From contig ONHW01000014.1 of NCBI GenBank assembly GCA_900317745.1, positions 1 through 62,191 of the forward strand: a DNA stretch of 62,191 bases, written 5' to 3'. Position numbers and translations under genes: made by a program. Below, piece after piece: positions 2,262-60,820 of this stretch. The stretch is from an uncultured Bacteroidales bacterium (GTDB lineage Bacteria; Bacteroidota; Bacteroidia; Bacteroidales; Paludibacteraceae). Every line of letters starts with the position of its first letter. Position 1 is the stretch's first letter. The notes under the pieces were generated by a model that was given only the letters and a program-made list of their open reading frames with translations, ran no database searches and was not told the origin of the DNA.

Positions 2262-2861
2262 ATGGAAAATCAGAAGCAACAAATAATCAAGACGGCAGGC
2301 GAGATGTTTTTTCGCTTAGGCATACGCAGCGTGTCGATAGACGATATATGCCGCGAGTTAGGTATGTCGAAAAAGACGTTCTACGTGTATTTTGCAGGCA
2401 AAGACGAACTGGTGGCACAATTGTTGCAGTCGAATATCGATTGTATGGCGGTCAAGTTGCGTGAGTTGCTGGAGCTGCATGATTTCCGCAAGCTGGTGAA
2501 AACCTTGCTGCGCCGCCAACAGGCAGAAAAGAACGATGTACGCCGCGTGCCGCAGCTGGTGTATGACCTGAAGAAGTATTATCCGAAACAATTTGCAGAG
2601 TTTCAGAAAAATACGTTCCGCGTGCAGAAGGAATACCTGCAGGCGTATCTGGAGCAAGGTTTGCACGACGGTTATGTGCGTAGCGACCTGGACATCGAAC
2701 TGACAGCAGTGCTGCTGGCAAAGATCCACAGCGATGCGATACGCGACTTTGAGCAGATAGAGGCTCACGGGATTACTATGCATCAGCTGAGTCACACGGC
2801 GATGGATATATTTGTTCGCGGCGTGCTGAGTGAAGAAGGAATGAAGTTGTATGAGAGTTGA
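2262..2861 (+). CDS. TetR/AcrR-family repressor of the efflux operon
   Basis: 199 residues from ATG 2262; a GTG at 2250 would add four residues. The N-terminal helix-turn-helix is clear (SIDDICRELGMSKKTFYVYF, about residues 27-46), followed by a helical ligand-binding domain. It is the first gene of the operon that continues into TolC, fusion protein and RND pump, the usual arrangement for a local repressor responding to pump substrates. The stop codon TGA lies inside a GTTGAAA heptamer array (2855-2878), one of several genes here whose stop is supplied by such a repeat. Confidence 0.9.
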   Translation: MENQKQQIIKTAGEMFFRLGIRSVSIDDICRELGMSKKTFYVYFAGKDELVAQLLQSNIDCMAVKLRELLELHDFRKLVKTLLRRQQAEKNDVRRVPQLVYDLKKYYPKQFAEFQKNTFRVQKEYLQAYLEQGLHDGYVRSDLDIELTAVLLAKIHSDAIRDFEQIEAHGITMHQLSHTAMDIFVRGVLSEEGMKLYES

Positions 2862-2878
2862 AAATTGAAAATTAAAAG
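2855..2878. repeat. Heptamer array (GTTGAAA/ATTGAAA)
   Basis: Three 7-base units spanning the TetR stop codon. Confidence 0.6.
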
Positions 2879-2882
2879 ATAT

Positions 2883-4223
2883 ATGAAGAAAACAGTATTA
2901 GTAGTATTGGCGAGCATAGTGTTGAGCGCAGGGATGCATGCCGAAGACCGTGTGCTGGCAGCAGCCCGTGACGGTGAGGCACGCAAGGATGTGCCTGCCG
3001 AGCTGGAGCTTTCGCTGCAAGAGGCGCAAGACTATGCCATCAAACAGAACAGAAGTCTGAAGAATGCGTCGCTGGCAGTACAGGAAGCCTACGCACAGCG
3101 TTGGCAGACTATAGCAGCAATGTTGCCGAACGTGGACGGAAGTTACAGTTACAGCAACTATCTGGGTTACAGCGCAACGCTGTCGATGGCTGGACGCGAT
3201 GTGGAGATCAACATGCCTAACGTAGGCGCCTTGGGTTTGACGGCATCGATAGGCCTGAACGGACAAGGTATAGTAGGCGTGCTGCTGAACAACATTGCGA
3301 TAGAGATGAAAAAGATTGCGCTGGAGAAATCCGAGAGCGATCTGCGCGGAAGTGTGATGAGCAGTTACGTAAGCGTGCTGGCACTGCAGAGTATATCTGC
3401 CCTGTTGGACTCCAGCCTGACGAACATCCAGAACCTGGAGCAGATCACGCAGAACGCTGTGGATGCCGGTGCTGCCGAGCAGACAACCGCCGATCAGATT
3501 CGCGTGCGCGTAAATACATTGAAGAACAGTATCAACTCGCAGAAGCGTAATATCGAACTGGCTACGAACAGCCTGAAAGTGCTGCTGGACGTGCCGGTAG
3601 AGACAACTCTGGTGCTGACAGAGAATCTGGATGAGGTGTTGTCGCCCGACCGTGTGCTGGCATTGCTGGGTGAGAACTTTGACATCCACAACAATCTGAC
3701 CTACCGGACATTGGAGAAGAGCACCGCTCTTGCGCGCCGTAACGTGCAGATGGCAGGTTGGGCGTACGGTCCGACTGTAAGTCTGGGATACAACTATACC
3801 AACCAGCAATACTACGGCGAGGGCGGTATGCGTATGACGCCTCCGAACGTTGTTCAGGTGAGTGTGCGAATGCCGTTGTGGTCGAGCGGCAAGCGTGCTG
3901 CAGGCGTGATAGAGAAGAAGATTGCATACGAGGAGGCGAAGAACACGTTGTCGGAGACGACGGACAATTTAGGTATTCAGTACAGCCAGTTGTGCTTCAA
4001 CCTGACCAACGCCTACGAGACGTATGTGAACGAGAAAGACAATATAGACGTAGCGCAGCGCGTGTTTGCTTCGGCAACGAACAAGTACAAATATGGCGCA
4101 AGCAGTAACCTGGAGCTGACGAACGCCAGCAACGACCTGATCAATGCGCAAAGCACGTATGTACAGGCAGTGTTGAGTCTGGTGAACGCACAAGTGGAGT
4201 TGGAGAAGTTCCTGAATAATTAG
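2883..4223 (+). CDS. TolC-family outer-membrane efflux protein
   Basis: 446 residues starting at ATG 2883 (the frame opens 18 bases earlier, but the signal peptide MKKTVLVVLASIVLSAGMHA begins here). It has two long coiled-coil hairpin repeats of the outer-membrane efflux family, with the usual Asn/Ala/Gln-rich heptads (NLELTNASNDLINAQSTYVQ near the C-terminus). It forms the outer-membrane channel of the tripartite pump encoded with the next two genes. It follows TetR by 21 bases. The TAG stop leads directly into a GTTGAGT array. Confidence 0.92.
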   Translation: MKKTVLVVLASIVLSAGMHAEDRVLAAARDGEARKDVPAELELSLQEAQDYAIKQNRSLKNASLAVQEAYAQRWQTIAAMLPNVDGSYSYSNYLGYSATLSMAGRDVEINMPNVGALGLTASIGLNGQGIVGVLLNNIAIEMKKIALEKSESDLRGSVMSSYVSVLALQSISALLDSSLTNIQNLEQITQNAVDAGAAEQTTADQIRVRVNTLKNSINSQKRNIELATNSLKVLLDVPVETTLVLTENLDEVLSPDRVLALLGENFDIHNNLTYRTLEKSTALARRNVQMAGWAYGPTVSLGYNYTNQQYYGEGGMRMTPPNVVQVSVRMPLWSSGKRAAGVIEKKIAYEEAKNTLSETTDNLGIQYSQLCFNLTNAYETYVNEKDNIDVAQRVFASATNKYKYGASSNLELTNASNDLINAQSTYVQAVLSLVNAQVELEKFLNN

Positions 4224-4257
4224 TTGAGGGTTGAGTGTTGAGTGTTGAGTGTTGAGA
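4223..4257. repeat. Heptamer array GTTGAGT x5
   Basis: Five consecutive 7-base units between the TolC and fusion-protein genes, beginning with the last base of the TolC stop codon. Confidence 0.85.
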
Positions 4258-4301
4258 GAAGTTTGTAAGTTTAGAGTTAAAAGTTGATAAATAATAGAAA
4301 A

Positions 4302-5318: not shown

Positions 5319-5321
5319 TTC

Positions 5322-5357
5322 TCGAAATATCGAAATATCGATAAATCGATTTATCGA
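5322..5357. repeat. TCGAAATA repeats ending in a 20-base perfect palindrome
   Basis: In the gap between fusion-protein and RND genes, 8-base units TCGAAATA lead into TCGATAAATCGATTTATCGA (5338-5357), which equals its own reverse complement. It could be a repressor operator or an internal RNA hairpin. Confidence 0.7.
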
Positions 5358-5365
5358 AATAATTT

Positions 5366-11864: not shown

Positions 11865-11868
11865 GATA

Positions 11869-11936
11869 TTTACGATTTGACGATTTACTATTTACGATTT
11901 GACTATTTACGATTTATGATTTAGTCATTTGTCTGT
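11869..11936. repeat. ATTTACG/ATTTGACG heptamer array
   Basis: Seven or more units of 7-8 bases in the gap between the fbp and TetR genes, running a few bases into the TetR stop region. Confidence 0.75.
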
Positions 11937-14708: not shown

Positions 14709-17078
14709 CTATAGTTCCACAATCGTTATGCCTGCACCTCCGCGGTCGGGGTCACCGTCATGAAACTCTATGGTACCTGTGCCTCGTTTGAGCATCGCGT
14801 GCCGCTTCTGCTGCAGATAGTCGCGCACCACTTGCTTCACGGCACCTGTGCCTGTACCATGCAGGATCGTCACTTCTTCGGCACCAACCATGATTGCATC
14901 GTCTATATAGGCAATTATCTGCTCCAACGCTTCATCTACGCGCATGCCTCGCATATCCAGAGTGCGGTTGAATGCGAGTTTGCGCCTACGCATCTGATCG
15001 GCAACGGTGGTTGTCGGGCGTGCTGCGGAAGGCTTGGGCGCTAAGTCCGGGCGCTTGGTCAGCATGCGCAGATCGCTCAAGTCGTGTAGCACTTTGTGAC
15101 CGCTGCGCTGTTTGACCGCTGGCGCTGTTTGACCGCTATCGCTGTTTGACCGCTGCGCTGTTGGATTGCTTTCGACTTTTGACTTTCGACTTTCGACTTT
15201 CTGCTTCATCTCCTCGACTTTCGCACGGGCTTTCTTTGTAACCTCTTTGTCCGCTTGCGCCTCTTTGATCTCGCGAATGGTACGTTCGATGGTTGCGTTG
15301 GACTGCTGCAGAATATCTGCGGCTTGCTGCTTGGCCTCGTTGAGCATCTCTTTCTGCTTCTTTTTGAGTTCGCCTATCTCTTTTTCGTAGAAGGCGATAC
15401 GCTCCTCCAGATGCTTTTCGCGCGTGCGGATGTTCTCGCGTTTGTTCTGCCAGTACCGTTTGTCGCGGGCTATATCCTGTAACTGCTTGTCGTAATCAAT
15501 ATGTTCAGCACCAATTAGTTCGGTTGCTTGACTGATTATGTCTTCCGGCAGACCGATCTGCCGTGCTATCTCGATGGCAAACGATGAACCGGCTTGCCCG
15601 ATGGACAGTTGGAACAACGGACGCAGGGCACCTCGGTCGTAGAGCATGGCTCCGTTCACTATACCTTCAGTCTGCTCGGCGAGGTGCTTGAGGTTGGTGT
15701 AGTGGGTAGTGATGATACCCGTTGCGTGTGCCTCGTTCAGGTGCAACAGTACACTCTCGGCTATGGCTCCGCCAATCAGCGGCTCGGTACCCGTGCCGAA
15801 CTCGTCAATCAGGAACAAGGTTGTATCGTCGGCATTCTTGACAAAATGCTTCATGTTCCTCAGATGTGACGAGTAGGTGGATAGGTCGTTGTTGATGGAT
15901 TGTTCGTCGCCTATGTCTATCATCAGTTGCCGGAATATTCCTGCCTGCGAAGCCTCGCCTGCCGGTACAGTCAAACCGCATTGCAGCATGTATTGCAGCA
16001 GCGCGGCGGTCTTTAGGCAGACGGACTTTCCGCCAGCATTCGGGCCGGAGATAACGAGTATACGTTTTCCCTCGCGCAGAACGATGTCCAACGGCACAAC
16101 CTCTTTGCCAACCTCCGGCAGACGTTTGCATAGAACAGGATGCCGCGCCTGCAGCCAATGCAGAATAGGCTTGGGGGTAAGGGTCGGGGCTATACTCTTC
16201 AGTTGCAGACCTACGCGCGCCTTGGCACGCACAAAATCCACCTCTGCCACAAACTGCTGCACTTGCATCAGGTCGCCCAACAGCGGACGTAAGCGGTTGG
16301 CAAAATCTATCAATATGCGTATGCGCTCGCGCCGCTCGGCGCCTTCGAGTTCGCGGATATGGTTGTTCGCCTCAATCACTTGCTGAGGCTCGATATATAC
16401 AGTCTTTCCCGACGCACTCTCGTCATGTACTATACCGCCAATCTTCCGTTTGTATGCCGGAGCAACGGGCAGCACGAGTCGTCCTTCGCGCAGAGTAGGC
16501 GCCGCATCTTTGTCAATCAGTCCGTCGGCTTGTGCCTGACGGAGAATACGGTCGATAGCGCGCGCCACAGTTCCTTCCGCCTTGCGCAGTTCCTGCCGCA
16601 GACGTGCAAGTTCAGGCGACGCATTATCGCGCAGTTCGCCGTAGCGGTCGAGCAGGCGGTCGAGTTCGGTTGTCACCGGCGTGAGAGATAGTGTGAGCAT
16701 GTCGCCCATACCTGTCAGCAGACTGTAGCGCGCAGGGTCTAAGCCCTTCAGGAACGCTTGCATGTCGCGCGCGAACAACAGACACTTAAGCAGACTGAAC
16801 AGTTCCTGCTCATCGAGGTAGAGACCTTCGACGCGAATACGCTGCAACTGTTCGCGCAAGTCGTAGATATCGCCGTGCGGAAAGGATAGGGTGGCATCTG
16901 TCAGTGCTTGTTGCATCTGTGCGGTCTGTGTTACACGTTCGGCAATGGCTGCCGGATCGGTCAGAAAACTCATCTGCTCGCAACGCTCTTGCCCGAGCGG
17001 CGAGTCACACTCCTTGCTTATCCAACTGCGGATAAGCGTGAAGTCGATCTTCTGTTCTATGTTTTCCGGATAGTTCAT
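14709..17078 (-). CDS. mutS2: MutS2 endonuclease/ribosome-quality-control ATPase
   Basis: 789 residues. Walker A (SGPNAGGKSVCLKTAAL near 345), the MutS signature and Walker B (STYSSHLRNM, LFLIDEFGTGTEP), a long coiled coil (residues about 520-620) and a C-terminal Smr domain (LDMRGMRVDEALEQI, ILHGTGTGAVK) are all present. Family members resolve recombination intermediates and split collided ribosomes. Residues about 625-660, between coiled coil and Smr domain, are encoded by two repeat types: TCGAAAG heptamers (KVESRKSKVES) and the CTGTTTGACCGCTNNCG family. The gene overlaps the DUF721 stop by four bases. Confidence 0.95.
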   Translation of the reverse strand: MNYPENIEQKIDFTLIRSWISKECDSPLGQERCEQMSFLTDPAAIAERVTQTAQMQQALTDATLSFPHGDIYDLREQLQRIRVEGLYLDEQELFSLLKCLLFARDMQAFLKGLDPARYSLLTGMGDMLTLSLTPVTTELDRLLDRYGELRDNASPELARLRQELRKAEGTVARAIDRILRQAQADGLIDKDAAPTLREGRLVLPVAPAYKRKIGGIVHDESASGKTVYIEPQQVIEANNHIRELEGAERRERIRILIDFANRLRPLLGDLMQVQQFVAEVDFVRAKARVGLQLKSIAPTLTPKPILHWLQARHPVLCKRLPEVGKEVVPLDIVLREGKRILVISGPNAGGKSVCLKTAALLQYMLQCGLTVPAGEASQAGIFRQLMIDIGDEQSINNDLSTYSSHLRNMKHFVKNADDTTLFLIDEFGTGTEPLIGGAIAESVLLHLNEAHATGIITTHYTNLKHLAEQTEGIVNGAMLYDRGALRPLFQLSIGQAGSSFAIEIARQIGLPEDIISQATELIGAEHIDYDKQLQDIARDKRYWQNKRENIRTREKHLEERIAFYEKEIGELKKKQKEMLNEAKQQAADILQQSNATIERTIREIKEAQADKEVTKKARAKVEEMKQKVESRKSKVESNPTAQRSNSDSGQTAPAVKQRSGHKVLHDLSDLRMLTKRPDLAPKPSAARPTTTVADQMRRRKLAFNRTLDMRGMRVDEALEQIIAYIDDAIMVGAEEVTILHGTGTGAVKQVVRDYLQQKRHAMLKRGTGTIEFHDGDPDRGGAGITIVEL
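15097..15203. repeat. Two repeat families inside mutS2
   Basis: 15097-15165 holds four GACCGCTnnCGCTGTTT units. 15169-15203 holds CTTTCGA heptamers in tandem. Both fall in the linker before the Smr domain. Confidence 0.85.
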
Positions 17079-17393: not shown

Positions 17394-18461
17394 TCATCTC
17401 AGCCTTAGCCACTGCTGTGTAGTGAGCGGTGTACCTTCGGGTATACCGTTGATCTTGTACAGGCTGCTCATTTTCATCCCGTAGTATTGTGCTATGTCCC
17501 AAGCTGTCTCGCCGGGTTGCACGAGGTGGCGTGTGTTGCCCTTGGCTGCTTTGCTGCGTTTCGGGAACAGGTATATACGGTCACCGCCGCGCAACGGTTG
17601 CTTGTCGGTTGCCTCGTTGATGCGGCGTAGCGTCTTTTCTTCCATACCAAGCATAAATGCAATACTTCCCCACGAGTCACCCTCTTGCGCCACGACAAAC
17701 TTCCTGCCGTTGGTCTTTCCGTATGCGCGGTCAGCGTACAACTTGTTCGAGCGGAACACAGTCGGTCGCCACTGCACTGTATCAGCAGTCTCTCTTCTCT
17801 CAGCGTTAGCGGTCTGTCTTCTGTCAGCATTAGCGGTCTGTTTTCTGTCAGCGTCAGCAGTCTGTCTCCTGTTAGTGTCAACGGTCTCTTTTCTCTCAGC
17901 GCCAGTGGTCTTTAAGTCCGCTAAACCATAGGTTTCAATGATACGTATCAACTTCTGCGGATACGCCGGGTCGGTGGCATAACCGCAGGCTTTCAGACCG
18001 TTAGCCCACGCCTTGTAATCCTTGACATCGTAGGTGAACAACACCTCGTACCGCTTGCGTTTGAGGAAAAGCGAGTGGTCGCGAAACGAGTCTTCCGCCT
18101 TCGCATAACTACGAAAACACTCATCGCGCTTGTCGTCATCCTTGCGGAAGGTTTTGCCTTCCCAATCGCTGTGGCACTTGATGCCGAAGTGATTGTTTGC
18201 CTGTGACGCCAAATCGCTTTGTCCGGCACCGGACTCTAACAGTCCTTGCGCCAGCGTGATAGAAGCAGGTATGCCATATTGCGCCTGTTGGGCAAGTGCT
18301 GTGGCTTTCCAGCGTTCGATATATGCCGTATATGCAGGGTTGAGCGAAGCACCGTTTCGTGCAGGATAATCGGGGTTTAATCGTACTTCTTTCGCACTTA
18401 TACCGAGGTTGAATGCGAACAAAAATACTAAAACTGACAAATAGATTTTGTATCTGGACAT
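17394..18461 (-). CDS. Secreted glucosaminidase with two LysM domains
   Basis: 355 residues from ATG 18461. The ATG at 18473 lies only about 5-8 bases from the predicted transcription start, so the inner one is preferred. Signal peptide (VLVFLFAFNLGISA), then a FlgJ-type N-acetylglucosaminidase domain (SITLAQGLLESGAGQSDLA with its catalytic Glu, and NNHFGIKC), then a linker and two LysM peptidoglycan-binding modules (VAQEGDSWGSIAFMLGM; VQPGETAWDIAQYYGM). It hydrolyses cell-wall glycan strands. The linker (about residues 183-227) is a string of 8-residue repeats such as RKQTANAD, encoded by 24-base repeats. Confidence 0.9.
   Translation of the reverse strand: MSRYKIYLSVLVFLFAFNLGISAKEVRLNPDYPARNGASLNPAYTAYIERWKATALAQQAQYGIPASITLAQGLLESGAGQSDLASQANNHFGIKCHSDWEGKTFRKDDDKRDECFRSYAKAEDSFRDHSLFLKRKRYEVLFTYDVKDYKAWANGLKACGYATDPAYPQKLIRIIETYGLADLKTTGAERKETVDTNRRQTADADRKQTANADRRQTANAERRETADTVQWRPTVFRSNKLYADRAYGKTNGRKFVVAQEGDSWGSIAFMLGMEEKTLRRINEATDKQPLRGGDRIYLFPKRSKAAKGNTRHLVQPGETAWDIAQYYGMKMSSLYKINGIPEGTPLTTQQWLRLR
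17781..17912. repeat. 24-base tandem repeats in the glucosaminidase linker
   Basis: About five units of AGCGGTCTGTCTTCTGTC-type sequence, each adding eight residues. The same core occurs in HU-LysM, UPF0597, dnaX and mutS2. Confidence 0.85.
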
Positions 18462-19079: not shown

Positions 19080-20330
19080 GTGCTTGAGCGGTTTATTACA
19101 GATAATCAGAATGCTGATGTAGCGCAATTAGCGTTGCAAAGGAATCGCTATCCGATGCTCTCGGATAGCGATTTTCGTTTTGCTCTTCAGCAGATTGAGG
19201 GTCGCCAGCGCACGCGCGACAAGTTGCCGACTTTCGCTGCTATCGACGGTTGGCTCTATCCTCCGCGTTTGAACCTCGAGCAGTGCAGCAGCGAACGCAC
19301 CGCCCGCTTCAAAGCCTCGCTTCTCTCAACGCTCAACTCTCAACTCTCAACCCTCAACTTAATAGACGCTACCGGCGGCTATGGCGTGGATACGTTCTTT
19401 ATGAGCGAACAGGCTGCCGAAACGTACTATTTCGAGCAGAACACTGAACTTGCTGCCATTGCCGAAAATAATTTCCGCCTTGCCGGCAAATCTGTTCATG
19501 TTCATCCTGAACCGTTTACCGCTCAAACTCTTTCGACTTTCGACTTTCGACTTTCGACTATCATTTATCTCGATCCAGCCCGACGTGACACTCATGGCGG
19601 TAAGGTTTTTCGCTTGGAAGACTGCACGCCTAATGTGATCAATATAGTCCGCTATATCCGCGAGATGCGTGCTATTCGCACCGATATGAATATCCGGATA
19701 GTGCTCAAACTGTCACCGATGCTTGATTTTCACCAGGCTGTCCGCCAACTTGGAGGCACGTGGGATACGTTTGTGGTGAGTGTGAATGGTGAGATGAAAG
19801 AACTTTTGCTCTTGTCAGAAGGTAGCGGAAAGGTTCATGCTGTAATGTTGTCGGATGATAGCGAACAGGTTTTCACTTTCACACCCGATGAGGAGAGTAG
19901 GGCGGAAGTACAGTATCTGCCTGCAAATATGTCACTTACAGGTATGCACGTTTACGAGCCTGATGCAGCGTTACTCAAGGCGGGTGCGTTTCGGCTGATC
20001 AGTGCCCGTTACCGCCTCATGAAGGCTGCCCTGAACACGCATCTTTATTTCGCCGATACGAATCAGGCTTTCGACTGTAAGGGGCGCACATGGCAGATCA
20101 TTGCTGTCTATACGCGCGTGAAAGATGTACAACGCGCACTCGCGTGTGCAGGTGTAACGCATGCTAACGTGCTCGCGCGCAACTATGTCCTGCCTGCCGA
20201 TACGCTGCGCAAGCAGTTTCGGCTGAAAGACGGCGGTGACGATTACATTATAGGCTGCCGGGCAGGTGAGGCAGGTGCCGGGCAGCCTATACTCTTGCAT
20301 TGCAAGCGTGTAGAAAACGTTCAGGGATAA
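19080..20330 (+). CDS. Class I SAM-dependent methyltransferase with THUMP-like C-terminal domain
   Basis: 416 residues, GTG start three bases after the preceding stop. The SAM-binding loop (LIDATGGYGVDT, about 95-106), YFEQN acidic strand end and IIYLDPARR (the DPxR-type motif) are visible. The C-terminal part (about 330-416) matches the THUMP-like domain seen in Bacteroidota proteins of this type, pointing to an RNA substrate. Two repeat-encoded insertions flank the SAM motifs: LSTLNSQLSTLN (residues about 81-94, CTCAACT heptamers) and LSTFDFRLST (149-161, CTTTCGA heptamers), placed in loops. Confidence 0.85.
   Translation: MLERFITDNQNADVAQLALQRNRYPMLSDSDFRFALQQIEGRQRTRDKLPTFAAIDGWLYPPRLNLEQCSSERTARFKASLLSTLNSQLSTLNLIDATGGYGVDTFFMSEQAAETYYFEQNTELAAIAENNFRLAGKSVHVHPEPFTAQTLSTFDFRLSTIIYLDPARRDTHGGKVFRLEDCTPNVINIVRYIREMRAIRTDMNIRIVLKLSPMLDFHQAVRQLGGTWDTFVVSVNGEMKELLLLSEGSGKVHAVMLSDDSEQVFTFTPDEESRAEVQYLPANMSLTGMHVYEPDAALLKAGAFRLISARYRLMKAALNTHLYFADTNQAFDCKGRTWQIIAVYTRVKDVQRALACAGVTHANVLARNYVLPADTLRKQFRLKDGGDDYIIGCRAGEAGAGQPILLHCKRVENVQG
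19323..19360. repeat. Heptamer array CTCAACT in the methyltransferase gene
   Basis: Five units; the coding strand carries the stop-free orientation. Confidence 0.85.
19528..19561. repeat. Heptamer array CTTTCGA in the methyltransferase gene
   Basis: Four perfect units in frame. Confidence 0.85.
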
Positions 20331-23579: not shown

Positions 23580-23644
23580 AGTTGACTTTTGTAGTCTTTT
23601 CGACTTTTAGCGCAGCGGTCTTTCGACTATCGACTTTCGACTAC
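23580..23644. repeat. CTTTCGA-type array reaching into the gcvT stop codon
   Basis: Mixed CTTTCGA/CTATCGA units with one AGCGCAGCGGTC module; the gcvT stop TAG lies at its edge. Confidence 0.7.
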
Positions 23645-38417: not shown

Positions 38418-38429
38418 GCTTGTTTATTA

Positions 38430-38535
38430 TAGTTTAGTGTTTAGAGTTTAGAGTTGAGCGAAGTTAGAAAGTTTATAGTAGTCAGTTAACTTTCAACTCC
38501 CAACTATAAGACTTCTCTCAACCCTCAACTCTCAA
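38430..38535. repeat. Mixed heptamer array between deacetylase and ABC-F genes
   Basis: TTTAGAG, TTTCAAC, CTCAACT and related 7-base units fill the whole gap and encode the last ABC-F residues (LVES) and its TGA stop. Confidence 0.8.
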
Positions 38536-40393
38536 CTAACTCAGCCAGTTGTTCGCTCAGGATCTCCCACTCGTACATCCGTTGCTCCAGTGAACGCTTG
38601 AGGCGGTTATACTTCTCGAAGTTCTCCGGCGACTGACCTTCCACCTCTGCCAGGATCTGCTCGATGTCCAGGATCTGCTGTTCGAGGTCGCTTATGTCCT
38701 GTTCGGCTTGCGCCACGGCTTTCTGTGCCTTGCGCAGTTCGGCTGCTTTGGCTTTCTGTGCAGCGTAATCGGCTGCGCCGCTGGTCGCGGGGACCCCGGA
38801 GGGGAGAGAGTAATTACTCCCCGCCCTATGAGGGAGGGGGTGGGTCTGTAACGCCAAATCAATCGCTTTATCTGCGTCTTCCGGTAAGTTTTGGCTTTCG
38901 ACTTTCGACTTTTGTCTCTTATAACGCAGCCAATCATAGATACCGCCGAGGTGTTCGCGCACCTTGCCACCGCCGAACTCATATACTTTGCTCACTATAC
39001 CATCCAGGAAATCGCGGTCGTGGCTGACGAGTATGACCGTACCTTCGAATGCCTGCAGGGCTTCCTTGAGCACGTCCTTGCTGCGCATGTCGAGGTGGTT
39101 GGTAGGCTCGTCGAGTATGAGCAGGTTCACCGGTTCGAGCAGCAGGCGGATCATTGCCAGCCGGCTGCGCTCACCGCCGGAGAGCACTTTCACGCGTTTG
39201 TCAATGGCTTCGCCGCCGAACATGAATGCACCTAATATATCTTTTATGCGCGTGCGTATGTCGCCCACAGCCACACGGTCGATGGTATCGAACACGGTCA
39301 GTTCGCCGTCGAGCAGCGAAGCCTGGTTCTGCGCAAAATATCCGATCTTGACGTTGTGCCCTATCTTCAGTGTGCCGGTGTAATCCTGCAGTTCGTTCAT
39401 GATGCAGCGCACGAGTGTCGTTTTACCCTCGCCGTTCTTACCCACAAACGCCACTTTCTCGCCTCGGCGGATAGTGAACGTCACATGGTCGAACACCACA
39501 TGACTGCCGAACGCCTTCTTTATATCGTCGGCTATCACGGGAAAGTCTCCGCTACGCGGTGCCGGCGGGAATTTCATCCTCAGGCGGCTGTTGTCCTCCA
39601 TATCGACCTCCAGGCGCTCCAGTTTGCTGAGTTGCTTGATTCGGCTCTGCACCTGCACGCTCTTCGTAGCCTTGTAGCGGAAGCGCTCAATGAAATCCTC
39701 GGTGTCCTTGATCATCTTCTGCTGGTTCTCGTATGCGCGCACCTGTTGCTCGTGGCGCTCCTGACGCAGGGTGACGAACTGCGAGTAGGGTACGTTGTAG
39801 TCGTAGATCTTGCCCAGGGAGATCTCTATCGTCCGCGTGGTGACATTATCGATGAACGCGCGGTCGTGGCTGACAATTATTGCCGCACACGGTGCAGCCT
39901 TCAGCCAATCTTCCAGCCATTGTATGGATTCGATATCCAGGTGGTTGGTAGGCTCATCGAGCAGGAGCAGGTCGGGCTTGCGCAGCAGGATCTTTGCCAG
40001 TTCGATACGCATTCGCCATCCGCCGGAGAACTCGTTGCACGGGCGGTCGAAGTCCGTACGCTCAAATCCCAAGCCGAGCAGTACGCGTTCCATGTGCCCG
40101 ATACTCTTCGGGTCCTGTTTGTCGCGCACGCTGTCCACCTCTTCGCGGAGCGTTGTGCCCTCGTTGTGGATCATGTGCTGCGGCAGGTAACCGATCGTCA
40201 TGTCGCTGTCGCGGCTGATATGACCGCTTGTGGGGGTCTCTTCGCCGGCTATGAGGCGGAGCAGGGTGGTCTTGCCTGCTCCGTTCTTGCCTACCAAGGC
40301 AATGCGGTCACGTTTGTTGACCAGAAACGTGATACCAGCCAGTATAGGCTTGGAGGAGTACTCCTTAACTATATTTTCAATGCTTAGTGCCAA
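38525..40393 (-). CDS. ABC-F family ATPase (Uup/YheS-like)
   Basis: 622 residues. Two ABC domains: Walker A GKNGAGKTTL and GKNGEGKTTL, signatures FSGGWRMR and LSGGERSR, Walker B LLLDEPTNHLD and LILDEPTNHLD, no membrane helices. These proteins act on the ribosome. The C-terminal region between ATPase 2 and the final coiled coil contains repeat-encoded segments: KSKVESQ (residues about 493-500) and the palindromic element (514-538), 48 bases of which are identical to the HU-LysM gene. The stop is inside a GTTGAG array. It overlaps the uvrA end by ten bases. Confidence 0.92.
   Translation of the reverse strand: MALSIENIVKEYSSKPILAGITFLVNKRDRIALVGKNGAGKTTLLRLIAGEETPTSGHISRDSDMTIGYLPQHMIHNEGTTLREEVDSVRDKQDPKSIGHMERVLLGLGFERTDFDRPCNEFSGGWRMRIELAKILLRKPDLLLLDEPTNHLDIESIQWLEDWLKAAPCAAIIVSHDRAFIDNVTTRTIEISLGKIYDYNVPYSQFVTLRQERHEQQVRAYENQQKMIKDTEDFIERFRYKATKSVQVQSRIKQLSKLERLEVDMEDNSRLRMKFPPAPRSGDFPVIADDIKKAFGSHVVFDHVTFTIRRGEKVAFVGKNGEGKTTLVRCIMNELQDYTGTLKIGHNVKIGYFAQNQASLLDGELTVFDTIDRVAVGDIRTRIKDILGAFMFGGEAIDKRVKVLSGGERSRLAMIRLLLEPVNLLILDEPTNHLDMRSKDVLKEALQAFEGTVILVSHDRDFLDGIVSKVYEFGGGKVREHLGGIYDWLRYKRQKSKVESQNLPEDADKAIDLALQTHPLPHRAGSNYSLPSGVPATSGAADYAAQKAKAAELRKAQKAVAQAEQDISDLEQQILDIEQILAEVEGQSPENFEKYNRLKRSLEQRMYEWEILSEQLAELVES
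38778..38850. repeat. Palindromic element inside the ABC-F gene
   Basis: 38782-38829 is the exact reverse complement of 44086-44133 in the HU-LysM gene. Confidence 0.9.
38893..38915. repeat. CTTTCGA heptamers inside the ABC-F gene
   Basis: Three units, encoding KSKVESQ on the minus strand. Confidence 0.75.
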
Positions 40394-43281
40394 TGCTTTA
40401 ATGCTTTACCTGTGTAACTCTGTTCGCACGCCATGATTTGCTCGGGTGTACCTTCCGCCACAATGCGTCCGCCATCTTTGCCGCCTTCGGGACCGAGGTC
40501 AATGATATGGTCGGCAGCCATGATCAGTGTGGGGTTATGCTCGATCACTACCACCGTGTGCCCCTTGCTGATCAGTCGTTCCAGGGCATTGAGCAGCACC
40601 AGTACGTCGCTGTGGTGCAAGCCTGTGGTCGGTTCGTCGAAGATGAACATGGTTGGTCGGCTGTTCTCCTGCGCCAGATATGACGCGAGCTTCACGCGCT
40701 GGCTCTCGCCGCCGGACAGGGTGCTGCTCGACTGACCGAGTTTGACATAACCGACACCTACGTCCTGCAGCGGTTTGAGCAGTTTAACTACCTTCGGGCA
40801 ACCGTACTCGGTGAAGAACTCGATAGCCTCGTCCACAGTCATGTTCAGTACGTCGTAGATGTTCTTGCCGCCGAAGGTTATCTCCAGCACATCTTTCTTG
40901 TATCGTTTGCCGTGGCAGTGTTCGCACTCAATGACTATATCTGCCATGAACTGCATCTCAATCGTTATCGTACCTTCGCCCTGACACTCCTCGCAGCGGC
41001 CGCCCGGGGTGTTGAACGAGAAGTGTGCCGGTGTGAAGCCCATCTGCTTGGAAGCCTGCTGCTCGGCAAAGATCTTGCGGATCTCGTCGAAAGCCTTCAT
41101 GTACGTCACGGGGTTCGAGCGTGAGGATTTGCTGAGCGGGTTCTGGTCAACGAACTCCACGTCTTTGAGCAGGTGCATGCTTCCGCGCAGACTGCCATAA
41201 TCGCCTGTGTGTTCGGCAGCTATGCCGCCGTAATGTTTCTTCAGGGCAGGGTAGAGCACCTTGCTCACGAGCGACGATTTGCCGCTGCCGCTCACGCCTG
41301 TGATCACCGTGAGTACACCCAGCGGGAACTTGACATTCAGGTTCTGCAGGTTGTTCTCGGCTGCACCGATAATCTCGATATAGTTGCTCCAGGGTCTGCG
41401 TTGCGGCGGTATAACCGAGGGAAAATCCTGCAGGCGCGGTTTGCCTACGTAGGTTATCTCGCCGCCGTGACTGCCGGCTTTCGGTCCGATCTCTATCATA
41501 TAGTCGGCAGCCATCATTATATCCTCATCGTGCTCCACGACGACGATCGTGTTGCCCAGGTCGCGCAGTTCGTGCAGCACGTGTATGAGCCGCTGTGTGT
41601 CGCGCGGGTGCAGACCGATGGACGGCTCGTCCAGTACATAGAGTGAGCCTACCAGGCTGCTGCCCAACGATTTGGCAAGGTTGATACGCTGGCTCTCACC
41701 GCCCGAGAGCGTTGAAGCCATGCGGTTGAGACTGAGGTAACTGAGTCCCACATCCTCCATGAACTGCAACCGGCTGCGAATCTCCGTGATCAGTTCGCCC
41801 ATGCCTGCCAACTTGTTGCTTATTTCTGATTGCTGATTGCTGATTGCATTCTCCAGCCCGTGCACCCACTCCATCACTTCGCTCACGGGCATTGCGGCTA
41901 TGTCGGTTATGCGCTTGCCGCCTACCCATACATACTCTGCCTCTTTCCTCAGACGCAGACCGCGGCAGTCAGGGCAGACAGTCTTCCCCTTGAAGCGTGC
42001 CAGCATGACACGGTACTGGATCTTGGCGTACTGGTCTTTCTCTAGCATGCGGAAGAAGTCGTTCAGTCCGCGGAAATACTCGTTGCCTGTCCAGATCAGT
42101 TGTTTCTGTTCGGGTGTGAGTGCGTAGAACGGTGTGTGAATAGGGAAATCGAACTCAGCGGCGTGGTAGATCAGTTCGTCGCGCCATTTGCTCATTTTCT
42201 CTCCGCGCCAGCAGGCTATAGCGTCTTCGTAGATACTCTTGGATTTGTCGGGCACTACCAGATCCACGTCAATGCCTATTATATTGCCGAATCCGTTGCA
42301 TGTCGGGCAGGCGCCGAGCGGGTTGTTGAAGTTGAACAGGTGCTCTGTAGGCTCGACAAACTGTATTCCGTCTGCCTCAAACCGCTCGGAGAAATGTACC
42401 ATTTGTATTCCGCTTTCGTCTTTCGACTTTCGGCTATCGTCTATCGACTTTTGACTATCGACTTTCGACTCTGAAGGCAACTCTGTGCGCAGTACGCACT
42501 CGCCTTTGCCCTCGAAGAACGCCGTTTGTATGGAGTCGGCAAAGCGGTTCTCTGTAGCCTGTTCGCCATCCGCCACTATGCGGTCCACGAGCAGATAGAC
42601 ATTCTCGAGATCGCTGATCAGGTCGGGACTGAGGCTGCTGCTCAGGCGCAGTATATCCGCGCTGCCGTCGTTGTGAACGTGCAACAGTCGTGAGTATCCC
42701 TCGCTGATCCATGCAGCGGCACGTGCCTGCAGGTTGTCTGCCTCCTGCTGTTCGCTGATTGCTGATTGCTGATTGCCCGGGGTCCCCGCAAGCTCGCGTA
42801 GTGGGGTGGCTTTGACCGCTGCCAGCAGCATGACGCGTGTGCCGTTGGGCAGCGAGCGCAGATGCTTGAGTACGTCGGCTACGGTGTGGCGTTTCACCTC
42901 TTTGCCGCTCACGGGCGAGAGGGTAGTGCCGGCACGTGCAAACAGGAGCTTGAGATAATCGTAGATCTCGGTGACCGTACCTACGGTTGAACGCGGGTTA
43001 CGCGAACTGACTTTCTGCTCAATGGCTATGGCGGGAGGTATACCGTCAATGCTGTCCACGTCGGGTTTCTGCATACGCCCGAGGAACTGCCGCGTGTAGG
43101 CGCTGAGGCTCTCCACGTAGCGGCGTTGACCTTCGGCATAGAGCGTATCGAACGCCAGCGACGACTTGCCGCTGCCGCTCACACCCGTGATCACAACCAT
43201 CTTGTTGCGCGGGATATCCACGCTCACGTTCTTCAGGTTGTTTGTGCGTGCACCTTCAATATGGATTGTGTTCCCTTTCAA
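40384..43281 (-). CDS. uvrA: Excinuclease ABC subunit A
   Basis: 965 residues. Two ABC modules (GVSGSGKSSLAFDTLYAEG; GVSGSGKSSLVSKVLYPAL), zinc-finger Cys sets (CPTCNGFG, CPDCRGLR, CEECQGEG, CEHCHGKR) and the signatures LSGGESQRINLA and LSGGESQRVKLA. It recognises bulky DNA lesions for nucleotide excision repair. Three repeat insertions are present: residues about 156-176 (AGTPGNQQSAISEQQ), 270-289 (SKVDSQKSIDDSRKSKDES) and 477-485 (SNQQSEISN). All are in loops and leave every motif intact. Confidence 0.96.
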   Translation of the reverse strand: MKGNTIHIEGARTNNLKNVSVDIPRNKMVVITGVSGSGKSSLAFDTLYAEGQRRYVESLSAYTRQFLGRMQKPDVDSIDGIPPAIAIEQKVSSRNPRSTVGTVTEIYDYLKLLFARAGTTLSPVSGKEVKRHTVADVLKHLRSLPNGTRVMLLAAVKATPLRELAGTPGNQQSAISEQQEADNLQARAAAWISEGYSRLLHVHNDGSADILRLSSSLSPDLISDLENVYLLVDRIVADGEQATENRFADSIQTAFFEGKGECVLRTELPSESKVDSQKSIDDSRKSKDESGIQMVHFSERFEADGIQFVEPTEHLFNFNNPLGACPTCNGFGNIIGIDVDLVVPDKSKSIYEDAIACWRGEKMSKWRDELIYHAAEFDFPIHTPFYALTPEQKQLIWTGNEYFRGLNDFFRMLEKDQYAKIQYRVMLARFKGKTVCPDCRGLRLRKEAEYVWVGGKRITDIAAMPVSEVMEWVHGLENAISNQQSEISNKLAGMGELITEIRSRLQFMEDVGLSYLSLNRMASTLSGGESQRINLAKSLGSSLVGSLYVLDEPSIGLHPRDTQRLIHVLHELRDLGNTIVVVEHDEDIMMAADYMIEIGPKAGSHGGEITYVGKPRLQDFPSVIPPQRRPWSNYIEIIGAAENNLQNLNVKFPLGVLTVITGVSGSGKSSLVSKVLYPALKKHYGGIAAEHTGDYGSLRGSMHLLKDVEFVDQNPLSKSSRSNPVTYMKAFDEIRKIFAEQQASKQMGFTPAHFSFNTPGGRCEECQGEGTITIEMQFMADIVIECEHCHGKRYKKDVLEITFGGKNIYDVLNMTVDEAIEFFTEYGCPKVVKLLKPLQDVGVGYVKLGQSSSTLSGGESQRVKLASYLAQENSRPTMFIFDEPTTGLHHSDVLVLLNALERLISKGHTVVVIEHNPTLIMAADHIIDLGPEGGKDGGRIVAEGTPEQIMACEQSYTGKALKHWH
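41825..41849. repeat. CTGATTG heptamers in uvrA
   Basis: Three units; the coding strand reads CAATCAG, the stop-free orientation. Confidence 0.85.
42415..42472. repeat. CTTTCGA/CTATCGA array of eight units in uvrA
   Basis: About 56 bases of uninterrupted 7-base periodicity inside the coding region. Confidence 0.9.
42753..42812. repeat. Composite CTGATTG array plus palindromic element in uvrA
   Basis: Three CTGATTG units run directly into CCCGGGGTCCCCGC and TAGTGGGGTGG. The same pairing of families is seen in the MATE gene. Confidence 0.85.
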
Positions 43282-43306
43282 TTTTCAGTTTTCAGTTTTC
43301 AGTTTA
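43281..43306. repeat. TTTTCAG heptamers between HU-LysM and uvrA
   Basis: Three to four units; on the coding strand they read AACTGAA and provide the HU-LysM stop TGA. Confidence 0.85.
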
Positions 43307-52999: not shown

Positions 53000-53000
53000 G

Positions 53001-54476: not shown

Positions 54477-54493
54477 GGCGTATTATATTTTAA

Positions 54494-56606: not shown

Positions 56607-56677
56607 GAGCAATATAGCAAAAAGTGATTTTTTTTTGTTATTTTGTTGCATTTTGTGCCTAAAGGGTGTGTAGAGGT

Positions 56678-56708
56678 TTGTTTTTTTGGCAAAAATTGTG
56701 TACTTTTG
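56678..56708 (+). promoter_or_regulatory. Promoter of fabD
   Basis: TTG 56678-56680, 20 bases, TACTTTTG 56701-56708. Confidence 0.8.
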
Positions 56709-56710
56709 TA

Positions 56711-56750
56711 CATGTTTAACGGCTTAATAGTTTAACAACTTAACAAAATC
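56711..56750. repeat. TTTAACG/TTTAACAAC repeats before fabD
   Basis: Irregular units like those between gcvT and pepT; they form the fabD leader. Confidence 0.5.
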
Positions 56751-56754
56751 AATC

Positions 56755-57627: not shown

Positions 57628-57635
57628 TCCGTCTA

Positions 57636-59117
57636 TTGTCTTTCGACTTTCGACTATTGACTTTCGACTCTCATCTACATAAATCCATCCTCCGGATTGC
57701 TGTCCCCTCGATCCTGGCTAACATCACTATCCCGCTGGTCGGGTTGGTGGATATGGTTATTGCCGGACATATCAGTTCGGCGTGGGCGATAGGCGGCATA
57801 GCGGTCGGTACAATGTTGTTTGACATGTTGTACGGCTGTTTCGGCTTCCTGCGTGTGAGCACGGCAGGTCTGACCGCTCAGGCGTACGGCGCCGGGCAGC
57901 GGATAGAGTGCGGCAATCTGCTGCTGCGCTCGTCGGGTATAGCGGTAGCAGGTGCATTGCTCATCTGGCTGCTGCAATCCGTCTATCTGCAGGCGGTGCT
58001 CTATGTTATGCCCTGCTCGCCCGAGGTCGCGGAGTTTGCGCGTGCATACTTCAACATTCGCGTCTGGGCTGCACCCGCTACGCTGATGATCATGACTTGC
58101 AAAGGCTGGTTCATTGGGATGCAGGACGGCACGCGCGCTATGGTCACCGATCTGGTGGTCAATGGCGTGAATATGCTCGCCTCGTACCTGTTGGCTGTCC
58201 ACACACCTTTAGGTGCTGTTGGCGTGGCGTGGGGAACGCTCATCGCCCAGTGGACAGGTCTGATCGTCGCCCTTGCAATGATCGCCACGCGCTACGCCGA
58301 CCACTTTCGACTCTCGACTTTCGACTTTCGACTCTCGACTTTCGACTCTTCCCGCTTCTTCCGCCTCAACTACGACCTGTTCATCCGTTCGTTGTGTTTC
58401 ATTGTAGTGTATGTCGGCTGGACGGCTATCAGCAGTGCCTACGGCGACGTGGAACTCGCTGCCTCTGCGCTTATGATGAAATTGTTCATGCTCTTCTCGT
58501 TCTTTATCGACGGTTTTGCTTATGCCGGCGAGGCTCTTGTCGGCAAAACCATCGGCGAGCAGCAATCAGCAATCAGCAGTCAGCAGTCAGCAGTCAGTTC
58601 TCAACCCACTCCCCTCCCGGGGTCCCCGCGACCGGCGGAAGTGGGGTGGTTTTGTGAGGGGAGCCGGAGGGGTGTCTTAGTTAGGACTCTCTTCGCCTGG
58701 GGCACAGGTGTCGGCTTGTTCTTCAGCCTGCTGTACGCCCTTTTCCCCGACGCGTTGTTTGCTGCACTCACTTCTGATCAGCAGGTTATCACTACCATGC
58801 ACAAGTATATAGGCTGGCTGATTGCTATGCCGATTGTCAGTATGCTGGCGTTCATGTGGGACGGTATTTTTGCCGGTGCTACGCGCGGTAAGGATATCCG
58901 CAACGCCATGCTCTGGGCTGCGGCCGCCTTCGCCGTTTCCTACTTTCTGCTCTCAACACTCAACACTCAACACTCAACTCTCCCCTCCTTTCAGGGAGGG
59001 GCAGGGGGTAGGCTTTCCATGCACTCCCTCTACATCGCCTACTTCGCCCACTTGGCGGCAAGGGTCATTTACCTCACTGCCAAATATTTCAGACAACCAA
59101 TACTTTATTTATCATGA
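57636..59117 (+). CDS. MATE-family efflux transporter with repeat-derived start and insertions
   Basis: 493 residues if started at TTG 57636. The first 12 or so residues (MSFDFRLLTFDSHLH) are encoded by CTTTCGA heptamers and no ATG exists where family members usually begin, just before KSILRIAVPSILANI; the next Met is well inside TM1. Twelve membrane helices in two halves. Extra repeat-encoded segments lie in loops: about 222-238 between the halves, 308-347, and 438-460. It exports cations or drugs by ion antiport. The stop overlaps the next ATG by four bases. Confidence 0.85.
   Translation: MSFDFRLLTFDSHLHKSILRIAVPSILANITIPLVGLVDMVIAGHISSAWAIGGIAVGTMLFDMLYGCFGFLRVSTAGLTAQAYGAGQRIECGNLLLRSSGIAVAGALLIWLLQSVYLQAVLYVMPCSPEVAEFARAYFNIRVWAAPATLMIMTCKGWFIGMQDGTRAMVTDLVVNGVNMLASYLLAVHTPLGAVGVAWGTLIAQWTGLIVALAMIATRYADHFRLSTFDFRLSTFDSSRFFRLNYDLFIRSLCFIVVYVGWTAISSAYGDVELAASALMMKLFMLFSFFIDGFAYAGEALVGKTIGEQQSAISSQQSAVSSQPTPLPGSPRPAEVGWFCEGSRRGVLVRTLFAWGTGVGLFFSLLYALFPDALFAALTSDQQVITTMHKYIGWLIAMPIVSMLAFMWDGIFAGATRGKDIRNAMLWAAAAFAVSYFLLSTLNTQHSTLPSFQGGAGGRLSMHSLYIAYFAHLAARVIYLTAKYFRQPILYLS
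57637..57672. repeat. CTTTCGA array forming the MATE start
   Basis: Five units running into the first conserved codons. Confidence 0.85.
58303..58349. repeat. CTTTCGA/CTCTCGA array in the MATE central loop
   Basis: Six to seven uninterrupted units, translated as STFDFRLSTFDS. Confidence 0.9.
58561..58678. repeat. AGCAATC array plus palindromic element in the MATE gene
   Basis: Five AGCAATC/AGCAGTC heptamers followed by CCCGGGGTCCCCGCGACC and AAGTGGGGTGGTTTT, with a GAGGGGAGCCGGAGGGG tail as in HU-LysM. Confidence 0.9.
58950..59017. repeat. CTCAACA array plus CCCCTCC/GGAGGGG element in the MATE gene
   Basis: Four heptamers followed by the inverted element also seen in rimO. Confidence 0.85.
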
Positions 59118-60592
59118 AACGATTCATAGTTATATTCGCGTGGCTATGTGTAGCCGCAACGCTGATGGCTGATATGCAGCCGATCTTTATGGAAACGTTC
59201 GATCGTTGTATCGACGCTGAGGATGAGAACTACGGTTACACCGGCGGCAACGACGAGCAGTGGGGTGGTGATATCGCCAAGGCGGTGGCTATCTACTCCG
59301 ACAACGCCGATTGGAGTTTCACCTACTGCAACGGTGCCTACCAGTGTATGAAGGTCGGTACGAGCACCAGGCAGGGCTCTGCCACCACGCCTGTTATCGC
59401 CTGTCAGGGCGAGGCAGTACTCACCTGCCGCGTGGCACCCTGGGAGGGCGACTCGATCTTTATAGTCTCACTCATCGGAGGCACAACAACGGATCCCACT
59501 TCGTTCAACCTCAAGAAGCACACCTGGACAGTTGTCACTATTCGTATATCCGATATACAGGGCAGCCTGCAGGTTAAGTTCAGCTCGCTCTACAAGCACC
59601 GCTTCTTCCTGGACGATATATGCGTCACCCCCGCGGACCCCGATGCAGGCGCCATACGCACCGCCGAAGGCTCAACCGTCGATTGGGGACTGATGGGCAG
59701 AAACTATTCTGTCTCCAAACGCGTACTGCATATCCATGGTGCCAACCTCACCAACGACGGCATATCCGTCAGCCTGAAAGATGGCGAACCCGGACTGTTC
59801 AGCCTCGCTGCCGACCGGCTGCCTGCCGACGGAGGCGAACTGGCTGTCACCTGCCGCCAAGGTGCTGCCGAGGGACAGCATGGCACCTACCTCTATCTCC
59901 GTGGCAAGGACAAAAAGAGCGGTCAGACAATCGAGAAACGTGTCACCTTGATCATGGAGGTCGCTGCTATCAACCTCCAGGGCGCCGGCACGCGGCCTAA
60001 CCCTTACACCTGCGCCGACGTGATCACACTCGCTGCCAACGAAGGGACAGTATGGACCGGCACCTATTATTGGGTCACCGGATATGTGCTCGGAGGTGTC
60101 AAACGCTACAACAACCTCTACGACGGCATAAGCATGACAGACGACCTGTCGCTTGTGCTTGCCGACAATCCTGACGAGATGAACGACGACCGTTACGTGC
60201 TCGTACAGATCAGCCACGACGCACGCGCTGCACTCAACGTGGTGGATAACCCCGAACTGATCGGTAAACCTGTCAAGGTGCAGGGGTTGCTGCTCAACGA
60301 CAAGGCTAACCCGCTCTATCTCGGTAAACCCGGCGTGCGCAACGTGAGCACCGATGACCAGTATTTCCGTCCGCTCAAGGACGGCACTGTGGTCGATGAT
60401 CCGTTGGACGGCATTCACGACCCCGACGAACCCATCGACCCGTATGACCCCGATCAGACTGCTGTTGACCGGACTGCTGACGAACTGCCGGCGTTCGACC
60501 CCTCGCAACCGTTCTACACCTTGTTCGGAGTCCGCGTCGAGGGCTCCTACCACGGCATTGTTATCCAGAACGGCCGCACTTACCTGCGATAA
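59114..60592 (+). CDS. Secreted protein with DUF6359-like domain and C-terminal sorting-like motif
   Basis: 492 residues. Signal peptide (FIVIFAWLCVAATLMA). Residues about 25-175 look like a jelly-roll domain ending in FFLDDICVTP; about 300-430 match a DUF6359-like OB-type domain (GTRPNPYTCADVITLAANEG, TYYWVTGYVLGG). The end (YTLFGVRVEGSYHGIVIQNG) follows the pattern YxLxGxRV..GIVIxNG seen at the C-termini of many secreted Bacteroidota proteins. Function unknown; likely surface or periplasmic. It shares the fabD operon. Confidence 0.8.
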   Translation: MKRFIVIFAWLCVAATLMADMQPIFMETFDRCIDAEDENYGYTGGNDEQWGGDIAKAVAIYSDNADWSFTYCNGAYQCMKVGTSTRQGSATTPVIACQGEAVLTCRVAPWEGDSIFIVSLIGGTTTDPTSFNLKKHTWTVVTIRISDIQGSLQVKFSSLYKHRFFLDDICVTPADPDAGAIRTAEGSTVDWGLMGRNYSVSKRVLHIHGANLTNDGISVSLKDGEPGLFSLAADRLPADGGELAVTCRQGAAEGQHGTYLYLRGKDKKSGQTIEKRVTLIMEVAAINLQGAGTRPNPYTCADVITLAANEGTVWTGTYYWVTGYVLGGVKRYNNLYDGISMTDDLSLVLADNPDEMNDDRYVLVQISHDARAALNVVDNPELIGKPVKVQGLLLNDKANPLYLGKPGVRNVSTDDQYFRPLKDGTVVDDPLDGIHDPDEPIDPYDPDQTAVDRTADELPAFDPSQPFYTLFGVRVEGSYHGIVIQNGRTYLR

Positions 60593-60727
60593 ATTTTACC
60601 AAAAAACGTTCCGTTCGATCGGGGGTTTATCGAGGGAATATCGATATTTCATCGTGGTTATGTCTTCGTTTCGGTATCTCTGTTTTTTTCTTTTTTGCAC
60701 TGTGCTTGAAAAAACTTTCCGAAAAAT

Positions 60728-60758
60728 TTGCAAATGTGCAATTTTTTTACTACCTTTG
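60728..60758 (+). promoter_or_regulatory. Promoter of dnaE
   Basis: TTG 60728-60730, 20 bases, TACCTTTG 60751-60758. Confidence 0.8.
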
Positions 60759-60765
60759 TAGTGCC

Positions 60766-60820
60766 AATCGTAAATGGTAAATGGTAAATGGTAAATCGTA
60801 AATGGTAAATCGTAAATCGT
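60766..60820. repeat. AAATGGT/AAATCGT array in the dnaE leader
   Basis: Seven uninterrupted 7-base units ending just before the ATG at 60822; the transcript leader consists almost entirely of this array. Confidence 0.9.

Follow-up and report, generated by a model that had tools for sequence, protein, structure and literature searches.

Cyanobacteria have for decades been known to carry heptanucleotide repeats, and short repeats kept in frame in housekeeping genes are known as Rickettsia palindromic elements, which are larger and palindromic. The accessible part of one study describes TAACTGA heptamers in Beggiatoaceae, cyanobacteria and five Bacteroidetes, mostly between genes; copies within open reading frames (ORFs) lie mainly near protein ends or in hypothetical proteins, in the stop-free direction (PMC4679880; MacGregor, 2015). 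What is available of a second report, which mentions an account from Calothrix, deals with G-rich heptamers and stresses their intergenic over-representation (PMC4692102), and the accessible text of a third distinguishes a Bacteroidetes subclass of TnpAREP-like proteins with atypical repetitive extragenic palindromic (REP) sequences (PMC6006769). Here we describe period-7 arrays, above all of the unit CTTTCGA, in contig ONHW01000014.1 (assembly GCA_900317745.1) of an uncultured Bacteroidales bacterium; the window is the whole stretch that was analysed, 62,191 nt, and its genome is labelled G000. An earlier note on this DNA had known of no described Bacteroidales system entering housekeeping genes. 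Heptamer repeats in Bacteroidetes were already published, as the accessible part of PMC4679880 makes clear, while a description of heptamer arrays in Paludibacteraceae was not found in the open-access literature. Heptamer repeats as such are therefore already known; the fixed ends of the CTTTCGA arrays are new here. We propose, with what we consider an even chance of being right, that the arrays are dispersed heptanucleotide repeats of the short tandemly repeated repetitive (STRR) or long simple sequence repeat (LSSR) type that behave as small modules, copied or synthesised as blocks and not grown unit by unit.

Arrays were detected with Tandem Repeats Finder (TRF) and an autocorrelation scan with a score threshold, against a null of 20 order-2 Markov shuffles. 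The window holds 16 period-7 arrays where the shuffles average 0.05, and other periods from 4 to 30 give 0-6 arrays each, save the harmonic 14 with 12. Both methods recovered the in-gene arrays that the earlier note had listed, with coordinates matching to a few bases; its array at 2855-2877 is a borderline detection only (TRF score 33). G000 comprises 2.6 Mb in 38 contigs, and its nearest relatives are rumen and gut metagenome-assembled genomes labelled Paludibacteraceae or uncultured Bacteroidales. When the search was extended beyond the window to 602 kb of G000 (the window and 27 stretches, about 23% of the 2.6 Mb, some picked around known CTTTCGA hits), period 7 was again the outlier with 68 arrays, which comprise 23 different canonical units; periods 4, 5, 6, 8 and 9 gave 0, 0, 1, 7 and 9 arrays, and periods 10-13 gave 3-13 each. 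A known CTTTCGA hit is present in 12 of the 28 sources, and the counts were repeated on the 16 hit-free stretches (320 kb), which hold 27 period-7 arrays; periods 4 to 13 otherwise give 0-4, save period 11 with 10.

The CTTTCGA arrays have fixed ends. Across the genus, 97 of 109 arrays start at phase C of CTTTCGA, and the preceding base is G or T in 96 of these 97. This standard start recurs in 72 of the 82 arrays that are 27 nt or longer, for which no phase bias from the search pattern can arise, in 38 of 41 arrays without the search pattern, and in six of seven from the hit-free G000 stretches. Arrays end at ..CGACT in 39 of the 109 cases and up to three bases beyond in 53, a spread that chance matches in the following bases would in part produce. 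Unit numbers in the 97 arrays run from two to ten (2:9, 3:20, 4:56, 5:2, 6:1, 7:5, 8:1, 9:2, 10:1), and the commonest block is (CTTTCGA)4CT, 30 nt or ten codons. Over 1.58 Mb that include hit-picked contigs, the counts for n = 1 to 9 are 92 (78 expected), 13, 12, 22, 1, 2, 3, 1 and 2. Fixed ends extend in part to other units: CTCAACN arrays end directly after ..CTCAAC in 23 of 34 cases, and the AATTACG arrays of G399, a genome from another family, start at AATT in 10 of 11. Lone copies of CTTTCGA occur at chance level (43 seen, 42.1 expected; rotations 44-71 seen, 45-62 expected), so the choice of unit is not due to seed abundance. Fixed ends, together with one unit at many unrelated loci, fit copying or templated synthesis of a block better than slippage, though they are no proof of it. 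The whole block would be copied or synthesised, rather than growing unit by unit from a chance seed, and candidate routes would be copying from a template, a switch of template at very short homologies, or a single-strand DNA endonuclease cutting at CT.

Genes were called with our own simple caller (coding fraction 0.873). The 68 G000 arrays comprise 34 intergenic, 11 gene-edge and 23 in-gene cases (16, 4 and 7 in the hit-free stretches), and for all units together array density in this sample is about 10-fold higher between genes than in them; CTTTCGA arrays are mostly in-gene (19 of 31 in G000 sources). The earlier note had derived frame neutrality from seven being coprime to three. That derivation fails: because 7 is coprime to 3, a one-unit change shifts the frame, and arrays are frame-neutral only at certain unit numbers, neutrality being set by length. 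Its reading of the units themselves was correct, in that CTTTCGA is open on both strands (L-S-T-F-D-F-R or S-K-V-E-S-R-K) and CTCAACT and AGCAATC one way only. Its remark that in-gene arrays show only the open orientation carries no evidential weight, because any open frame necessitates it. In the G000 sample, units open on both strands account for 14 in-gene, 1 edge and 5 intergenic arrays, units open one way for 9, 9 and 22, and units closed on both strands for 0, 1 and 7. Stop-bearing orientations are thus not equally common inside genes, eight of nine one-way in-gene units being open on the coding strand; the exception is probably a mixed array (L184 4213), scored by consensus. In-gene CTTTCGA arrays of the genus have n = 1 mod 3, for which 7n+2 is divisible by 3, in 48 of 69 cases (p = 9e-10 against 1/3), as do 8 of 13 at gene edges and 6 of 15 in intergenic DNA; where arrays lack the search pattern, the figures are 16 of 28 in genes and 0 of 6 between them. 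The hydrophilic reading VESRKSKVES is found in 56 of 72 in-gene CTTTCGA arrays against 16 with LSTFDFRLST (p = 1e-6), both being open. The excess of in-frame unit numbers and the preference for VESRKSKVES therefore indicate that array length and peptide character are filtered in genes, where selection would purge copies that break the frame, bear stops or strike folded parts of the protein.

The in-gene arrays occupy flexible, length-variable loops and linkers of conserved proteins. Pfam assigned the array-bearing genes of the window to UvrA, ABC-F, MutS2, a PG_1098/THUMP-like methyltransferase and a MatE protein. In an AlphaFold2 model of UvrA (50-row alignment; mean predicted local distance difference test, pLDDT, of 84), two segments of at least three residues fall below pLDDT 50, residues 161-173 and 278-287, and these overlap array sites 1 and 2; the match to 2r6f spans residues 6-157 and 293-962, without covering the stretch that holds both sites. 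The arrays of the window, with amino acid (aa) positions and the state of sister genomes where compared, are as follows.

4223..4256, - strand, CTCAACN array directly past a gene
11868..11923, strand not assigned, intergenic ATTTACG/TTTGACG array
15169..15203, + strand, CTTTCGA array in mutS2 (gene on the - strand), aa ~626-637, in the linker ahead of the Smr domain (between MutS_V and Smr)
19323..19360, + strand, CTCAACN array in the PG_1098-like methyltransferase, aa ~82-94; at the same place CTCTTAA-type repeats in sister G001 and CCTTTCA in G077
19528..19561, + strand, (CTTTCGA)4CT, 30 nt, in the PG_1098-like methyltransferase, aa ~150-161; other heptamers in the loop in G001 and G089
23620..23642, + strand, CTTTCGA/CTATCGA array close to a gene end
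38427..38455, - strand, intergenic CTAAACN array
38515..38537, + strand, CTCTCAA (CTCAACN) array across the 3' end of the ABC-F gene
38893..38915, + strand, short CTTTCGA array in the ABC-F gene, aa 493-501; lacking in G081, G089 and G077
41816..41849, + strand, uvrA site 3, CTGATTG (AGCAATC) array, aa ~478-489, spanning a turn between helices
42408..42472, + strand, uvrA site 2, CTTTCGA array with variants, aa ~270-292; CAATCAG-type repeats in G001
42746..42778, + strand, uvrA site 1, CTGATTG (AGCAATC) array, aa ~168-179
43276..43305, strand not assigned, TTTCAGT/TTTTCAA array between the upstream gene and the uvrA start
57637..57672, + strand, CTTTCGA array at the N terminus of the MATE protein; CTTTCGA here also in G081
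58303..58349, + strand, CTTTCGA array in the MATE gene, aa ~223-238
58560..58600, - strand, CTGATTG/CTGACTG (AGCAATC/AGCAGTC) array in the MATE gene, aa ~309-322; G081 has comparable units
58950..58982, + strand, CTCAACA array in the MATE gene, aa ~439-449; AATTGTC heptamers in the G081 loop
60766..60820, strand not assigned, intergenic AATGGTA/AATCGTA array

Two candidate properties were rejected. Replication-strand lock was suggested by the window, whose seven CTTTCGA arrays are all on the + strand, yet orientation has no link to GC skew over the G000 stretches (10, 9, 8, 5). Target-site duplication found no support either, the longest substring common to both flanks averaging 2.90 against 2.75 in shuffles (maximum 3.0), which is not significant.

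Elsewhere in the genus, CTTTCGA arrays lie in polA, ileS, dxs, murG, cmk, miaB and sufS and in the genes for glycogen synthase, an aromatic amino acid lyase, a U32 peptidase, signal peptidase I and an RdgB/HAM1-type phosphatase. A DNA polymerase I gene (L216 14115-16682) carries a seven-unit CTTTCGA array between its 5'-3' exonuclease and polymerase domains. The same gene also holds copies of a GC-rich palindromic element of up to ~80 bp, seen at 58601-58680, near 38778-38799 and 44116-44150, and at L216 15151-15580; this second in-frame dispersed class occurs at 14 places in the 602 kb of G000, seven of them inside called genes, including those for MATE and polA. A third repeat, of ~24 nt (CAGACCGCTATCGCTGACAGA type), is present at 17782-17911, 34824-34911 and 43848-43978, in frame in glucosaminidase/LysM, SDH_alpha and HU-domain proteins, and the SDH copy matches 18 places in the 602 kb.

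Comparison with sister species, each represented by one genome, shows turnover of sequence at these sites. Close orthologs mostly lack arrays or carry other sequence in those loops, and identical segments at the same places in unrelated Bacteroidales were not seen (0 of 80 other UvrA rows show the peptide at the three sites, judged by eye). Each genome has a few favoured units, and sisters often show other units in the same loops. In uvrA, the nearest species, G081, lacks all three arrays, and other heptamers stand at site 1 in G001 and G089 and at site 2 in G001; in the MATE and methyltransferase loops, sisters have AATTGTC, CTTTCAC or CTCTCAA types where G000 has CTTTCGA or CTCAACA. At a glycogen synthase loop, G000 and G040 carry CTTTCGA and one species carries AAAAATT heptamers, while G077, G081, G001 and G089 have none. 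Some sites are common to several genomes: G000 and G081 both have CTTTCGA at the N terminus of MATE and AGCAATC/AGCAGTC units at its third site, and one ileS array recurs in G040 and G090. For MiaB, one array is exactly the same in G345 and its sister G085 (95.7% identical), and in a second loop G345 repeats its identical 34-nt string where G085 has (CAGCCGT)n instead. The insertion model of the earlier note therefore stands in part: arrays have been added to conserved genes in variable loops, but no clean empty target site was seen, because the loops are too variable. What looks like insertion could also mean that an older repeat was replaced, and MiaB of G345 and G085 is a case of this kind.

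The pattern (CTTTCGA)3 is present in 35 of 101 genomes of the genus, where the reversed control gave 0. Order-wide it occurs in 4 of 393 genomes, namely G000, the genus member G345 (19 hits), and G385 (24) and G399 (7), which belong to families other than the window's; the control pattern in this search gave one hit in each of two genomes. It is also found in 26 stretches of viral contigs (L254-L279), where some CTTTCGA arrays are long and end registers differ from those of the window's genus. In G399 (L240-L244) four favoured heptamers, AAAGTCG, AAATCCG, AATTACG and AAGGCGG, fit AANNNCG or AANNNGG and are often adjacent. Heptamer arrays of other units are frequent in the genus, with 36 in 400 kb from 20 genomes; seven of these genomes carry (CTTTCGA)3, and a known hit lies in one of the stretches (L418). 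Paludibacteraceae-like loci have 14 heptamer arrays in 172 kb, and loci near uvrA in other Bacteroidota, where period 7 is dominant at a lower density, have 13 in 622 kb (62 loci).

Several observations weigh against copying in blocks. The standard start is absent from 12 of the 109 arrays and is weaker between genes (15 of 23). The peak at n = 4 is partly ascertainment, because selection of most loci required three consecutive perfect units, and runs of CTNTYGA..CT in 909 kb not chosen by hits (n = 1:37, 2:2, 3:4, 4:5, 9:1) are too few to establish a peak. CTCAACN arrays start at two main phases (14 and 12 of 34), CTGATTG (6 arrays) and AAATCCG of G399 (16 arrays) have no single start, and the CTTTCGA registers differ in G399, G385 and the viral contigs. 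The contrast in n = 1 mod 3 between in-gene and intergenic CTTTCGA arrays has a Fisher p of 0.04, between-gene unit numbers are 2:3, 3:4, 4:5, 5:1, 7:1 and 9:1, and a one-unit seed that gains 3 or 6 units (7(n-1)) would give n = 1 mod 3 in genes just as well. The gene calls of a simple caller count on the same side. No clean empty site with matching flanks, which would show the unit of insertion, was found among the compared relatives: the loops of the G000 sisters differ too much, and the matching stretches (> 400 bp) of the close pair G040 and G090 are only 68-86% identical in DNA.

The main rival is local slippage, which we regard as possible but somewhat unlikely. A seed arising by chance, in which 2 nt recur seven bases apart (CTNNNNNCT), would expand by replication slippage, the polymerase favouring 7 nt and selection keeping in-frame loop lengths. 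Such growth would suit the finding that, among long simple repeats, heptamers are the most frequent in many repeat-rich bacteria, for which a polymerase-footprint explanation has been proposed (Mrazek 2007, as given in the accessible part of PMC4679880). The dominance of period 7 in other Bacteroidota, though less dense, also agrees with it, as do n = 1 mod 3 in genes, compatible with growth from n = 1, and the near-equal counts at n = 2, 3 and 4 (2, 4, 5) in loci not chosen by hits. However, seed abundance fails to explain which unit is used, and the identical short tail (CT) almost everywhere would require an identical seed everywhere. An in-gene seed would also have to leap 21 nt or cross two frameshifted states, and five-unit arrays are scarce (2 of 97), though frame alone would remove them in genes. 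Slippage by single units also underlies the idea of phase-variable contingency loci, in which it would toggle DNA-repair and transport genes. A 7-nt step does shift the frame, and arrays do lie in uvrA, mutS2 and MATE, but many affected genes are central (ileS, dxs, murG, cmk, miaB) and the arrays are short and often broken by variant units, which makes this explanation very improbable. Least probable of all, and barely credible to us, is a telomerase-like reverse transcriptase that would add heptamers by copying an RNA template aligned over 2 nt: blocks of 7+2 anatomy whose ends are fixed resemble a short-template product, yet the 95.6% complete genome has no RVT_1 (PF00078) match in a search that was positive in 3 of 14 control genomes.

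A single-strand HUH transposase of the REP-associated tyrosine transposase (RAYT) or TnpA_Y1 type, cutting at CT and moving or copying CT-bounded blocks as non-palindromic REP-like elements, would be another candidate agent, though we consider it quite unlikely. Characterised TnpAREP enzymes cleave single-stranded DNA at CT, or CA, according to the accessible part of PMC8266576, and CT opens the blocks and mostly closes them. G000 has six match rows for RAYT-like genes, among them an ORF (L420 1192-2295) with PDHIH and RYVQMNP motifs (by eye) and a match to NCBIfam NF047646 at 29.7 bits, but the family hits lie under the curated cut-offs (29.7 of 80 and 20.1 of 23 bits), and a PDB search with the protein gave nothing at E <= 1. 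This gene has a long C-terminal part and a CGAAGCGCTTCG palindrome directly downstream; flanks read by eye show no heptamer array beside it. RAYT-like matches occur in 31 of 35 genomes with (CTTTCGA)3 against 37 of 66 without, an exploratory count uncorrected for phylogeny that includes fragments and paralogs; with a completeness floor of 90% the counts are 14 of 14 and 18 of 30, likewise uncorrected, and four array-bearing genomes (59-85% complete) lack a match. Folding of the 30-nt block gives two TCGA-CTT-TCGA hairpins (z = -2.4 and -1.95 for the two strands), but the single CTCAACN array that was folded gave no hairpin. Simple insertion 3' of an existing CT fits poorly, because a gain of 7n favours n = 0 mod 3 in genes, and n = 1 mod 3 is seen. 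A broader proposal, doubtful in our view, is that host-encoded machinery, for which a domesticated RAYT-like HUH endonuclease with CT as its site of action is one candidate, writes discrete heptamer blocks that are non-palindromic, gene-compatible and of defined ends, with a species-specific unit, also into loops of essential proteins. Such blocks would form a class of dispersed element not described before, by which the surface loops of proteins would be rewritten continually.

A genus in which one fixed-end heptamer block occurs at many loci, in frame in core genes and with turnover of the unit among sisters, makes the origin of such repeats testable. Heptamer blocks would also provide, in nature, in-frame insertions into the loops of essential proteins.

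Among known systems, Rickettsia palindromic elements differ in being palindromic, whereas the arrays here are tandem and not palindromic as a whole; a long-hairpin fold was absent in the three arrays that were folded, of which one gave 4-bp TCGA hairpins, one gave nothing and one folded weakly. REP sequences and bacterial interspersed mosaic elements (BIMEs) with TnpAREP (RAYT) are likewise dispersed short elements, CT is both the cleavage site of characterised enzymes and the end of our blocks, and RAYT-like genes are present, but the CTTTCGA unit holds neither GTAG nor a GTAG-hairpin, and the arrays are frequent inside genes. The TAACTGA repeats, as far as the accessible text of PMC4679880 describes them, also place one heptamer at many loci, patchily over distant lineages and with some stop-free copies in ORFs; in contrast to ours, they lie mostly between genes, upstream of start codons, and that text reports no fixed block size. 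The STRR and LSSR repeats of cyanobacteria, Xanthomonas (GGGAATC) and Nostoc have the same 7-nt period and are likewise dispersed and lineage-specific, with few units per genome, and G000 shows both tandem units of exactly 7 nt far above chance and several unit families dispersed in one genome. The known ones are stressed as intergenic in the accessible part of PMC4692102, whereas here 23 of 68 arrays (7 of 27 in hit-free stretches) lie inside genes and the CTTTCGA arrays have fixed ends.

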